From Vicinamibacteria bacterium (GTDB taxonomy: Bacteria; Acidobacteriota; Vicinamibacteria; Fen-336), in contig DATMML010000095.1 of the NCBI GenBank assembly GCA_035570235.1, positions 1 through 33,466 of the forward strand: a stretch of DNA of 33,466 nucleotides, read 5' to 3'. Position 1 is the stretch's first letter, and each line of letters opens with the position of its first letter. Of the stretch, positions 15,585-20,919 are shown piece after piece. The notes beneath the pieces were generated by a model, which searched no databases, was not told the DNA's origin, and worked only from the letters and a program-made list of their open reading frames with translations. The position numbers were made by a program, and so were the translations under genes.

Positions 15585-18350
15585 TCAGGGTCCGCTATCC
15601 TTCCGCTTTTCCAAAGCGCTGGGCGGCACGGAGCCAAGAACCGGCTCCGAGCGCTTGAGGATGTCGCGGATGGCGGCCATGTCTTCGTTGGTTATGCGTG
15701 TGAAGCGGACCCCAAAGCCAGGCGGCCAATCGCGGGAAGAGGGCGCGGCTGCATTGTTCACCCACGAGACCTGGCCAACCACCTTGAGAAACGTGGTGGG
15801 CGCGAGCTCGACCACGAGCGTCACCATCTCGCCCACGGGTGGAGGCTGTTCGGTCGAGGCGAACAGGCCCCCCGTGCCAAGGTTGGCCACGCGCATCCTC
15901 TCGCTGCCGGCCACGCAGTACACGTTCTCCACGTAGAACCGATTTACCGGCGTCTTCCCCTTTCCCCCGAGCCGGGCAACGAGGCTCGAGGCTTTGCCCC
16001 GGATCCGCGGATTCTCGTCCCGGAGCGCCTCGATGAGAGCGGGGACGGCGGCCCGGCCGATGCTGAACAGGGCTTCCTGGGCCTCGTCGGGCTCAAGAAA
16101 GTCCCTCTCTTTCAGCGCCTCGATGAGCGCGGGGACGGCGGCCAGGGCGTCCGGACCGATCAACCCCAGAGCCGCCGCCGCGTGATGCCGGAGAACCTCG
16201 TCCCCGTCCCTCAGGGCGGCGGCGAGGGCGGGGACAGCCTCCTTGGCAGCTGAGTTCATTCGCCCGAGAGCCCGGGCCGCTTCGCCACGGACCGTGTCGT
16301 CTTGGTCCTCCAAAGCGCCGGTCAGGGCCGGGACCGCCTCCTTTGCCACCCGACCCATATCCCCGAGAGCTGCCGCCGCCCGCCAGCGAACGCCGGATTC
16401 GTCGTCAGTGGTGAGAGACAAGATGAGGCTGCCGACGTCGACCGTGTCAGGAGCCGCGGGTCCCGGAGGCTCGGGGTTCGGGAGCGGGTTCGGTTGGGGG
16501 CTCGGTTCCGGCTTTCCGATGACCTTCTCGAGGGCCAGGGCCACGGCGTCGGTAGTCGACGCATCCCTGTCCTCCAGTGCCGAAAGGAGGGCGGGGATGG
16601 CTGCTCTCGCCTCTGGGCCAATCTCACCGAGCGCGGCCGCGGCCCGCCAGCGAACGTTGGCGTTCTCGTCTCTGAGCGCTCCGACGAGATCGGGCACCAC
16701 GTCCTTGGCGGATGGGCCCATAGCGCCTAGGGCCGCCGCCGCGGCAGCGCGCACGAAGCGGCTCTCGTCCTTGAGAGCTCCCACAAGGTCCGGGATCGCC
16801 TCCCTCGCTTCAGGACCGATGCCACCGAGAGCAGCCGCAGCCCAGTCGCGGATGCCGCTCATCGTGTTCTTGAGAGCCGCCCGCAGCGCCGTGACCGCGG
16901 CCTTCGCGGACGGCCCTAGGTGTCCCAGGGCGACCGCTGCCCACTCGCGGACGCTCACGTCCTCGTGCCGCAGCGCGTCGATCAGGGCCGAGACATCGAT
17001 CGGTCCGGTACCGGTCGTAGGCGAGGCGTCCGAGCGGTCCGGCTCTCGTTCCTCCGTGATCGTCCTCAGGGCCTCGGCGGCGGCATGGGCGACAGAGAGC
17101 GCCTTGTCTTCGAGCGCTTTCGTAAGGGCCGGAACCGCATCCTTGGCCATGGGGCCCATCTCCCACAAGCCCACGGCCGCCCTCCAGCGGACGCGCACGT
17201 TGGGATGGTCCAGGCCCGATATGAAGCTGGCAAGCCGTTCCTTGCCGGCCAACTCCGCCTCGGCGGCGATTTCGGAGGGGATCGGGCGAGTTGTGTCACG
17301 CCTCGCGGGCGGGGCGCCATCGGCGGCCCCCGGAAGGGTGTAACCCCTGGGCGGAGTGAAACCCCGGGGAGGGAGTGGGAGCGGTGACCTGAGCGGGGTG
17401 GGCTTTCGGCGGGGCTCAAGGTCGGGTCCGCCCCGAGCCAGGCGCAAGGCCTCGCTCATTCCCCGCGCCGTCGCATAGCGCTCGTCGGGTGACTTGGCGA
17501 GCGCCTTCCGCAAGATCGGAACCAGTTGCCTCGGGAGGGGGGCGGCGTGGGGCCCGCTTAGCGGGGGAGCCTCCCGCAAGTGCTTGAGGATCGTGAGGAC
17601 CGGACTCTCACCGCGAAAAGGGACGCGGCCCGTGAAAAGCTCGAAGACGACCACCCCGAGCGCGTAGAGGTCGCTCCGGAAGTCCACACTTCCCCCGCGT
17701 GCTTGCTCGGGGCTCATGTACTCCGGGGTCCCGATGATCTCCCCGGCAACGGTGCCCTCGGTCTGTCCGTCGGCCATCCACCGCTTTGCGGCTCCGAAAT
17801 CGATGAGTCTGACGATTCCGCGTGAGTCCAGCATCACGTTCGACGTCTTGAGGTCGCGGTGAACGATCCCCACGTCGTGGATCGCCTGTAGCCCCTTGCT
17901 GATCTGGATCGCGACCTCGAAAGCTTCGTCCCATCCCAGGCTGCCTTTCTCTGCGATCCTGCGGCGCAGGTCGACTCCGTCCACGAACTCCATCGAGACA
18001 TAGGTACGCCCCCTGTCCTCCCCGTATTCGTGAAAGCGGCAGACGTTGCGGTGGCTCACTTTGCGGGCAAGCTTGATCTCGAACTGGAACCGGCGGCCCC
18101 ATTGGGGGGTCCGGCTCATGTCGAAGCGCAGGAGCTTGACGGCGACGACTTCATCGAGGATGCGGTCTTGAGCTTTGTAGACCGCTCCCATGCCTCCCTG
18201 ACCGAGGAGGTCGAGGATTTCGTAGCGGCGGCTCAGGACCTCGCCCACCTTGAGAATGGAGAGATGCCGCCCACATTGGGAACACGCGTCCGCGGCGCTA
18301 TCGTTTTCTGCCTTACACGACGGGCAGATCACCGGAGGATCAAGCCCCAT
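15585..18350 (-). CDS. Zinc ribbon / Ser-Thr protein kinase / HEAT repeat / PilZ-like fusion
   Basis: A 921-residue cytosolic protein. Residues 9-26 form a four-Cys zinc ribbon (CPSC...CSQC). The kinase spans about 43-305: glycine loop GQGGMGAVY, Lys72, catalytic HRDLKTSN (Asp166), DFG at 184-186, and GTPEYMSPEQ, so it should be active. A Pro/Arg-rich linker (about 306-365) follows. Residues about 366-765 are HEAT/PBS-lyase repeats of about 31-36 residues with VRWRAAAALG and AVPALIEAL units, split by a Pro-rich linker. The last 150 residues resemble a PilZ-type domain (MRVANLGTGGLFAST, GQVSWVN, GFGVRFTRI); the usual Asn-x-Ser-x-x-Gly has Gly for Ser, so cyclic-di-GMP binding is uncertain. No transmembrane segment is seen, unlike PASTA-type kinases. 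Confidence 0.92.
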   Translation of the reverse strand: MGLDPPVICPSCKAENDSAADACSQCGRHLSILKVGEVLSRRYEILDLLGQGGMGAVYKAQDRILDEVVAVKLLRFDMSRTPQWGRRFQFEIKLARKVSHRNVCRFHEYGEDRGRTYVSMEFVDGVDLRRRIAEKGSLGWDEAFEVAIQISKGLQAIHDVGIVHRDLKTSNVMLDSRGIVRLIDFGAAKRWMADGQTEGTVAGEIIGTPEYMSPEQARGGSVDFRSDLYALGVVVFELFTGRVPFRGESPVLTILKHLREAPPLSGPHAAPLPRQLVPILRKALAKSPDERYATARGMSEALRLARGGPDLEPRRKPTPLRSPLPLPPRGFTPPRGYTLPGAADGAPPARRDTTRPIPSEIAAEAELAGKERLASFISGLDHPNVRVRWRAAVGLWEMGPMAKDAVPALTKALEDKALSVAHAAAEALRTITEEREPDRSDASPTTGTGPIDVSALIDALRHEDVSVREWAAVALGHLGPSAKAAVTALRAALKNTMSGIRDWAAAALGGIGPEAREAIPDLVGALKDESRFVRAAAAAALGAMGPSAKDVVPDLVGALRDENANVRWRAAAALGEIGPEARAAIPALLSALEDRDASTTDAVALALEKVIGKPEPSPQPNPLPNPEPPGPAAPDTVDVGSLILSLTTDDESGVRWRAAAALGDMGRVAKEAVPALTGALEDQDDTVRGEAARALGRMNSAAKEAVPALAAALRDGDEVLRHHAAAALGLIGPDALAAVPALIEALKERDFLEPDEAQEALFSIGRAAVPALIEALRDENPRIRGKASSLVARLGGKGKTPVNRFYVENVYCVAGSERMRVANLGTGGLFASTEQPPPVGEMVTLVVELAPTTFLKVVGQVSWVNNAAAPSSRDWPPGFGVRFTRITNEDMAAIRDILKRSEPVLGSVPPSALEKRKDSGP

Positions 18351-18913: not shown

Positions 18914-19075
18914 TCAGGACATGGGCTTCACAGCGAGCGCCCCCCTGACCTTCGCCCTTTCACCGGCGGCATCCAAGCTCCCTTCGCAACCAAACTCAGT
19001 GATTCCGGACACCACCGCCACCAACTGCACCCCTGGCTCGCTCCCGACCCCAGCTGGCGGCAACAACCAACTCAT
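18914..19075 (-). CDS. Possible 53-residue ORF coupled to the PATAN gene
   Basis: Its ATG shares ATGA with the stop of the PATAN-domain gene, the same coupling seen across the B12 operon. The product is small, without a membrane segment or known motif (SWLLPPAGVGSEPG start). It could equally be chance read-through. Confidence 0.3.
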   Translation of the reverse strand: MSWLLPPAGVGSEPGVQLVAVVSGITEFGCEGSLDAAGERAKVRGALAVKPMS

Positions 19076-19845
19076 TGAGCCTTGCCCGCATGCGGTTCCC
19101 TGGGGCCAGGAGGCGGTTCGCGACCTGGGCCAGCCTGCGCCGCCTCCGCCTGGCCGTACCGGATTACGCCCAGGATCCGGAGGGCCCAGAGAGTGCGACA
19201 GGCCTCCAGGTTCGAAAGGTAGGAGACCTGGCAGATCTGCTCTACCGAGGCCCGGCCGTTGACGTGGGCCAAGACCTGTTGCTCCTCGTCCGTCAACCCG
19301 AGCTTGACAAGGACCTCCGTGTTGCCGGTGGGAACGGGAACGGAGCTCATGTCCCCGATCCCGCGATGGATGAGGCTCCAAGCGCGGATCCGGCGGATCC
19401 CCTCCAGGATGAGATTTTCCATGGGAAAACTGAGGATCACCACGTCCTCGAAGCCGATCTCGCCCGAGGTCAGCTCGTACTCCCCGTGGGTCCACGTGAG
19501 GACGTCGAGCAGGATCTCCTTCACGTGCTGCTGCATTGCGGGGAGCAGATCCAGTGGCTCGAGGACCCCCATCTCCACCAGGACCGTCCCCAGCCGCTGG
19601 CCGGGCTGCATCCTCTGGCTGCCCTCCCGGTACTGGCGAGCGGTGATCTTGCCTCGCCGAAGCAGGCTCTCGCCCATGCGTTCATCGGGGTCGCTGCTTT
19701 TGGCGTAGATCACATGGCCCATGTGCAGGTATAAGCTCTTAGTGACCGACCCGTTGCGAAAGGTAAGTATTCCCGTCTCCCGATTGGCCAGCGCCGATAG
19801 AAGTCGCTCGGGAACGCTGGCGTCTTGGATCATCCCCCGAGTCAC
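19072..19845 (-). CDS. PATAN/DUF4388-domain protein
   Basis: A 257-residue protein. Residues 10-110 (RLLSALANRETGILTFRNGSVTKSLYL broken into shorter matches, HMGHVIYAKSSDPDERMGESLLRRGKIT) are typical of the PATAN/DUF4388 domain, found in regulators of motility, development and gliding in deltaproteobacteria, cyanobacteria and Acidobacteria. The second half (LTDEEQQVLAHVNGRASVEQICQVS, ACRTLWALRILGVI) looks like a winged-helix-like end common in this family. Start: GTG 19845; an ATG at 19833 is an alternative. It follows a response-regulator-like gene on the same strand, and PATAN proteins often work with receiver proteins. Confidence 0.8.
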   Translation of the reverse strand: MTRGMIQDASVPERLLSALANRETGILTFRNGSVTKSLYLHMGHVIYAKSSDPDERMGESLLRRGKITARQYREGSQRMQPGQRLGTVLVEMGVLEPLDLLPAMQQHVKEILLDVLTWTHGEYELTSGEIGFEDVVILSFPMENLILEGIRRIRAWSLIHRGIGDMSSVPVPTGNTEVLVKLGLTDEEQQVLAHVNGRASVEQICQVSYLSNLEACRTLWALRILGVIRYGQAEAAQAGPGREPPPGPREPHAGKAQ

Positions 19846-20047: not shown

Positions 20048-20851
20048 TCAGCCTTCCCTTTGAAAGATCTGGATCACCCGCGCAACCAGCGCCTCGACCT
20101 CACCGGAGCCCTTCGGAACCAAGTCGTCAGCGCCATGGATGGTACGAGCCTCCTCCTGGTTTTCGATGGGGAGCCCCGTGTAGAGCACGATAGGGATGCC
20201 CACCCACTCCATCGTGGCTTTGATCACGTTGATGACGTCCCGCCCCGACATCGGGTCTGGAAGCCCGAGCTCGAGCACGATGACGTCGGGTCTCTCCGCA
20301 GTGATCGCCGCGATGGCGGCCCTGCCGTCTGCCACCGCTCGTACGGGCACGTTTGCGGACTCAAATGCCGCGGCCGCTTCGCGACGAGCCTCATCGTCAT
20401 CGTCGACGAGAAGCACCGCCTTGCGTCGACGGCGGGTGCGCACCGGCTGGAGGCTGGCAGAGGCCCCAGGCCCTCCTTCAGCAGGCATGCTCGAGAGATC
20501 ACTTCTCCCCGACGCGAGTCCCGACGACTGCGGTGGCGCAAAGCGTGAGCTCACCATCGCAAAGACCTCGCGTAGGATCAAAAGGCTTTCTTCTTGTCCC
20601 CTTGCGAGCGCCCGCAGCTCGACTAATAGCCCCTCCGAGTCCCAGACCGGACTCAACGCCGGGCTCGGGGCCGGGGATTGAGCCGCCGGAGCTGGGGAAG
20701 AGCCCATTGCCATGGGGCTCGGACCGCCGATGGGTGTCTCCGTGGTCGCGGGGGCCCTGAGGCGAGCGCCGCACTGCGGGCAATTGAGGAAGCGCTCTTC
20801 GTCTGGGGTTGCAGTGATGATGCCCTTGCAACGTGGGCATTTCGCCGTCAT
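20048..20851 (-). CDS. Zinc-ribbon response-regulator-like protein with Glu at the phospho-acceptor site
   Basis: A 267-residue protein; ATG 20851 is preceded by GGGAGAG. The N terminus is a zinc ribbon (KCPRCKG ... NCPQCGARL). A Pro/Ala/Ser linker and a helical segment follow, then a receiver domain at about 145-267: VLLVDDDDEAR (acidic pocket), IVLELGLP where the phosphorylated Asp should be but is Glu, LYTGLP (conserved Thr) and LVPKG (conserved Lys). Glu there often mimics the phosphorylated state, so the protein may be always-on or not use a kinase. There is no output domain, so it should act by protein contact, perhaps with the PATAN protein encoded next. Confidence 0.85.
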   Translation of the reverse strand: MTAKCPRCKGIITATPDEERFLNCPQCGARLRAPATTETPIGGPSPMAMGSSPAPAAQSPAPSPALSPVWDSEGLLVELRALARGQEESLLILREVFAMVSSRFAPPQSSGLASGRSDLSSMPAEGGPGASASLQPVRTRRRRKAVLLVDDDDEARREAAAAFESANVPVRAVADGRAAIAAITAERPDVIVLELGLPDPMSGRDVINVIKATMEWVGIPIVLYTGLPIENQEEARTIHGADDLVPKGSGEVEALVARVIQIFQREG

Positions 20852-20919
20852 CTCTCCCACCTCTATCTCCGGTTCTCCGCTTGTGGCGGCACCAATTCGC
20901 TAGCAACTTCTCTACAGGG

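Follow-up and report, generated by a model that had tools for sequence, protein, structure and literature searches.

The window, a stretch of 33,466 nucleotides, carries on its reverse strand a gene (15585..18350) for a 921-aa protein that joins a zinc ribbon-like N terminus, a Hanks-type Ser/Thr kinase, an arm of HEAT repeats, and a non-canonical PilZ domain. The explanation that we favour, with slightly better than even confidence, is that of a soluble kinase built on a lineage-specific chassis, whose tail combines a HEAT solenoid with a PilZ domain that was once a separate protein and now acts as a protein-interaction module. This docking explanation is drawn from the absence of both cyclic-di-GMP motifs in the PilZ domain, its sequence matches to Xanthomonas PilZ proteins, its stand-alone relatives, the varied tails of the kinase paralogues, and the precedent of Myxococcus xanthus Pkn1.

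Domain architecture and kinase relatives

The reading frame starts with an ATG and has a coding-like third-position GC of 0.80. Judged from the assembled sequence, the gene is unlikely to result from misassembly or a frameshift: it is a single open frame, its codon use is coding-like along the whole length, and the fusion point lies at a clean domain boundary. All the parts of the protein listed below with their positions are on the reverse strand. The N terminus (CPSC...CSQCG, residues 9–27, 18270..18326) contains four cysteines, C9, C12, C23, and C26, in a zinc ribbon-like pattern that is found again in most of the paralogues, and its match to the Pfam model DZR is weak (18.5 bits against a cut-off of 27.3). 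It is followed by the kinase domain (residues 43–295, 17466..18224), identified as Hanks-type by its match to the Pfam Pkinase profile (E 1.9e-49, 168.9 bits) and by intact catalytic motifs: GQGGMG (50), VAVK (69–72), HRDLKTSN (164), DFG (184), and GTPEYMSPE (207). The closest solved kinase by sequence is Mycobacterium (Mtb) PknB (E 1e-56), and from its motifs the enzyme is most likely catalytically active.

A Pro-rich linker, visible in the sequence at about residues 310–372 (17235..17423), leads into the HEAT region, which extends over roughly residues 375–794 and in which Pfam recognised HEAT_2 in seven stretches (E 8e-60, 199.5 bits). The repeats fall into three blocks, at about residues 375–434 (17049..17228), 453–613 (16512..16994), and 639–794 (15969..16436), each supported by Pfam and by a structural model, and the second and third also by Foldseek. 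Between these two lies another Pro-rich linker (about residues 614–638, 16437..16511) with low pLDDT in the model. Because the PilZ rows were misplaced in a mixed full-length alignment, the HEAT and PilZ parts were folded without the kinase. The resulting 547-residue model (residues 375–921) shows helical repeats, interrupted around residues 436–449 and 615–635 by linkers of low confidence, and after them a beta-rich domain ending in a helix; its pTM of 0.45 means that the relative placement of the domains is not reliable. In Foldseek comparisons the HEAT part resembled alphaRep proteins and the PP2A scaffold, and the region qualifies as a HEAT-repeat solenoid both by profiles over the cut-off and by its helical pairs. 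No membrane segment stands out in the protein, the highest 19-residue hydropathy mean (1.76) being located within a HEAT helix.

Relatives of the kinase half, 50–61% identical, are present in 13 of the 14 genomes of the taxonomic family, with several per genome. As judged from these sequences, the zinc ribbon and kinase together are a multi-copy chassis with differing tails, particular to this lineage, a family membership that the original prediction had overlooked. The tails include a hydrophobic segment with PEGA, HEAT repeats, GAF with HD_5, DUF4388, DnaJ, and a PilZ-like domain, as well as others recognised by eye only (CARDB-type, WD40-like or TonB-like). In a maximum-likelihood tree of the kinases, tail type changed at least 14 times, with at least three changes for HEAT and at least two for PilZ or PilZ-like tails; these minima rest on an uncertain tree, the backbone of which is poorly resolved, including around the window protein. 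The two PilZ-type tails appear as separate gains on the paralogue tree. In the genome of the window itself, searches gave 52 kinase, 26 PilZ, and 25 GGDEF matches, and the window gene was the only frame matched by both the Pkinase and the PilZ searches.

Some members of this family are worth describing individually. A 690-aa paralogue from the same genome (L220, 2146–4215 on the reverse strand of contig C64) has the zinc-ribbon kinase chassis followed by GAF_2 and HD_5. Its motif HHERWDGSGYP suggests an HD-GYP domain, so a single polypeptide may hold both a Ser/Thr kinase and a cyclic-di-GMP phosphodiesterase. The chassis kinases L202 (2698–4020, on contig C91 of the same genome), L203, L212, L213, and L215 carry a second PilZ-like tail (RRxxxRL...NxGRGG) and form one clade on the kinase tree; in L215 this tail is present in two copies, together with a DnaJ domain. 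We call this tail only PilZ-like because profile comparison with the PilZ subfamily of the window protein gave nothing significant and because its Pfam PilZ scores (19.2 and 16.0 bits) are under the cut-off. Upstream of the window kinase gene and on the same strand are genes for a DUF4388 protein (19072–19845) and a receiver-domain protein (20048–20860), and DUF4388 is also the tail of a chassis kinase from another genome (L219). The tail exchanges of the whole zinc-ribbon kinase family (loci L198–L234) could merit a separate study.

The PilZ domain and its subfamily

The C-terminal domain (residues 800–905, 15636..15953) matches the Pfam PilZ model PF07238 at residues 814–898 with 32.1 bits, above the curated cut-off of 22.5. 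Its scores against the NCBIfam model TIGR02266, 46.9 bits for the whole protein and 51.5 for the domain alone, are below the curated cut-off of 68.7 for that paralogous domain. An AlphaFold2 model of the domain alone (pLDDT 87) has the PilZ beta-barrel with its C-terminal helix and matches the solved PilZ domains of MotI (Z 13.6) and Alg44 (Z 13.2; Foldseek E 3e-4). Given the confidence of this model and these matches, the predicted fold is that of PilZ. A complete kinase with a zinc ribbon, some 400 residues of HEAT repeats, and a PilZ-like end in one protein, as originally predicted, is thus confirmed by Pfam, motifs, and fold; Pkinase, HEAT_2, and PilZ all exceed their cut-offs, and the C terminus does match a PilZ model. 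Structure prediction gave a confident answer for the PilZ fold and none for the packing of the domains.

Ten strong members of the PilZ subfamily were found in eight genomes, all from the taxonomic family of the window (eight of its 14 genomes). The same set of members was recovered by a single-sequence search of 60 relatives and by a profile search of 193 genomes of the class, and after the strong members the score dropped from 135 to 53 bits for the next best matches. A sample of 396 genomes spread over the phylum yielded no further member. As the profile was built from the members themselves, their high scores are expected, and it is the absence elsewhere that constitutes the result. Nine of the ten are stand-alone proteins, and the fusion to a kinase is restricted to the window copy (one of the 193 class genomes). 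A long frame in genome G003 is an open-frame artefact, the PilZ gene there starting at its own MKATDR.

The nearest relative, encoded by a 135-aa frame on contig C19 of genome G008 (L022), is 45% identical and shares the sequence NLGTGG with the window domain; it differs in being unfused and in having neighbours unrelated to those in the window. The subfamily paralogue on contig C36 of the same genome as the window carries NLSVSG. The window domain retains the 13 subfamily-invariant positions, R804 being invariant in the subfamily. The stand-alone proteins start at the very alignment column where the HEAT region of the window protein ends, which is the pattern expected of a gene fusion. No homologues of the tested window neighbours were found near the stand-alone genes, and three stand-alone loci had no common theme in their surroundings (by Pfam: aminotransferase III, GDSL lipase, PhoH, topoisomerase IB, and LigD).

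Roles considered for the HEAT–PilZ tail

Canonical cyclic-di-GMP-binding PilZ domains carry the motifs RxxxR and [DN]xSxxG. In the window protein the first position reads TPVNR and the second NLGTGG (residues 823–828, 15867..15884), while both motifs are present, by pattern, in about 13 of the 20 other PilZ domains of the same genome that were compared. The altered NLGTGG motif noted at the outset is therefore upheld, and RxxxR is missing too. At the level of sequence this loss is a strong hint against cyclic-di-GMP binding, though short of proof: PixB is without the Ser of the second motif and yet binds the nucleotide, and PlpA has the residues and yet is reported as non-binding (PMC8316039). 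The only solved structures matched by the subfamily profile are those of PilZ proteins from the Xanthomonas type IV pilus (E about 6e-6 to 2e-5). One of these entries (3dsg) mentions in its title 'trivial c-di-GMP binding activity', and others, also according to their titles, show the protein bound to PilB and FimX. The early proposal that the domain may bind protein instead of nucleotide is supported by these matches and by the loss of both motifs.

Binding to other proteins is what HEAT solenoids and PilZ domains of the non-canonical type do. In the window protein the two would provide docking surfaces holding protein partners or substrates close to the kinase; the PilZ tip, which would descend from a separate PilZ protein with a protein-binding role, would work in protein interaction and not as a cyclic-di-GMP receptor. 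We infer that protein docking by the HEAT arm and PilZ is the most likely role and that cyclic-di-GMP sensing is less likely. Against docking are the facts that motif loss is not decisive, that a single genome has the fusion, that the kinase tree is poorly resolved around the protein, and that by overall fold the domain is nearer to the cyclic-di-GMP binders MotI and Alg44 than to the non-binding Xanthomonas PilZ (Z 7.6).

This fold similarity, mainly with cyclic-di-GMP-binding proteins, is one of several observations in keeping with an unlikely, though not negligible, alternative, that the PilZ domain binds cyclic-di-GMP or another nucleotide non-canonically and the HEAT arm relays the signal, making the kinase a second-messenger effector. 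The genome is rich in GGDEF domains (25), all subfamily members keep R804, the HD-GYP-type domain sits on a chassis paralogue encoded by the same genome, and a related zinc-ribbon–kinase–PilZ protein without HEAT repeats from another genome, L256, has the canonical motifs. However, TPVNR stands in place of RxxxR and NLGTGG in place of [DN]xSxxG, the latter being common to the nearest stand-alone relative. Of the links first suggested for the protein, the one to cyclic-di-GMP is no more than possible in principle, considering the numbers of GGDEF and PilZ matches in the genome; as to motility, none of the window genes could be recognised as a motility gene.

It is rather improbable that the main task of the PilZ domain or the HEAT arm is to regulate its own kinase, through oligomerisation or autoinhibition, instead of docking substrates. 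HEAT solenoids commonly mediate assembly, and tetrameric self-assembly of a PilZ protein is known (title of entry 3ph1); however, the sequence offers no pointer to such a role, and the packing of the domains in the combined model (pTM 0.45) is not reliable. A wider reading, which we regard as just as speculative, is that the protein would be an integrator: the degenerate PilZ at the tip of the HEAT arm would bind a partner such as a cyclic-di-GMP enzyme or a canonical PilZ protein and thereby connect Ser/Thr phosphorylation with the cyclic-di-GMP network, in a tail-swapping kinase family in which some tails (HD-GYP, PilZ) are related to cyclic-di-GMP. Least probable is a recent and nearly neutral fusion in one lineage, with no role beyond that of a kinase–HEAT protein, since the intact frame, the confident PilZ fold, and the retained invariant positions suggest maintenance, even though the fusion is confined to a single genome of the class, the other nine subfamily members are unfused, and kinase–HEAT proteins without PilZ exist elsewhere in the family.

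Comparison with known systems

Returning to the docking explanation, its closest described precedent is Pkn1 (MXAN_1467) of M. xanthus, a kinase with a PilZ domain that has no cyclic-di-GMP motifs and is needed for sporulation (PMC8316039, PMC8844925). Like the window protein, Pkn1 has a kinase and a C-terminal PilZ in one protein; compared by description, it differs in consisting of kinase and PilZ only, with no HEAT solenoid or zinc ribbon mentioned. Literature text searches found no paper describing a kinase–HEAT–PilZ protein. The architecture, initially considered unusual, is indeed rare in the genomes searched, but the fusion of kinase and PilZ was already known from Pkn1 (PMC8316039). 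Proteins joining a kinase to PilZ thus have precedent, and what sets this one apart is the HEAT arm that separates the two domains. A scan of the contigs of named genomes with the full protein returned kinase-domain relatives only and is uninformative on how far the full architecture has spread.

Among 19 long PilZ frames from seven genomes, mostly of Myxococcota or Deltaproteobacteria, was L256 (genome G202, which also holds locus L111). It shares with the window protein an N-terminal zinc ribbon, a Pkinase domain, and a C-terminal PilZ (50.3 bits) and differs in belonging to another genome, in having no HEAT repeats, and in a PilZ domain that retains RxxxR and DxSxxG; its sequence makes it a promising candidate for a Ser/Thr kinase that responds to cyclic-di-GMP. 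The kinase–HEAT paralogues (L165 on contig C93 of the same genome as the window, L201 in genome G002, L228, L229, and L233) have the same chassis with HEAT repeats, and most have the zinc ribbon, but they have no PilZ and fewer repeats; L201, unlike the window protein, shows by eye a hydrophobic, membrane-like segment ahead of its HEAT region. The best solved sequence relatives of the PilZ subfamily, XC1028 and XAC1133 of Xanthomonas (E 6e-6), differ in being stand-alone pilus regulators with neither kinase nor HEAT repeats and in their weaker fold match (Z 7.6 against 13), and the entry title of XC1028 describes its cyclic-di-GMP binding as trivial.

Bacterial Ser/Thr kinases with a known link to cyclic-di-GMP signalling are few, and the single chassis that this lineage combines with PilZ, HD-GYP, HEAT, and DUF4388 tails offers a ready-made series in which to study how such kinases are directed by their tails. 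The window protein by itself adds one more combination to this set, with a degenerate PilZ; its parts are known and only their combination is new, so that it does not represent a new kind of system.
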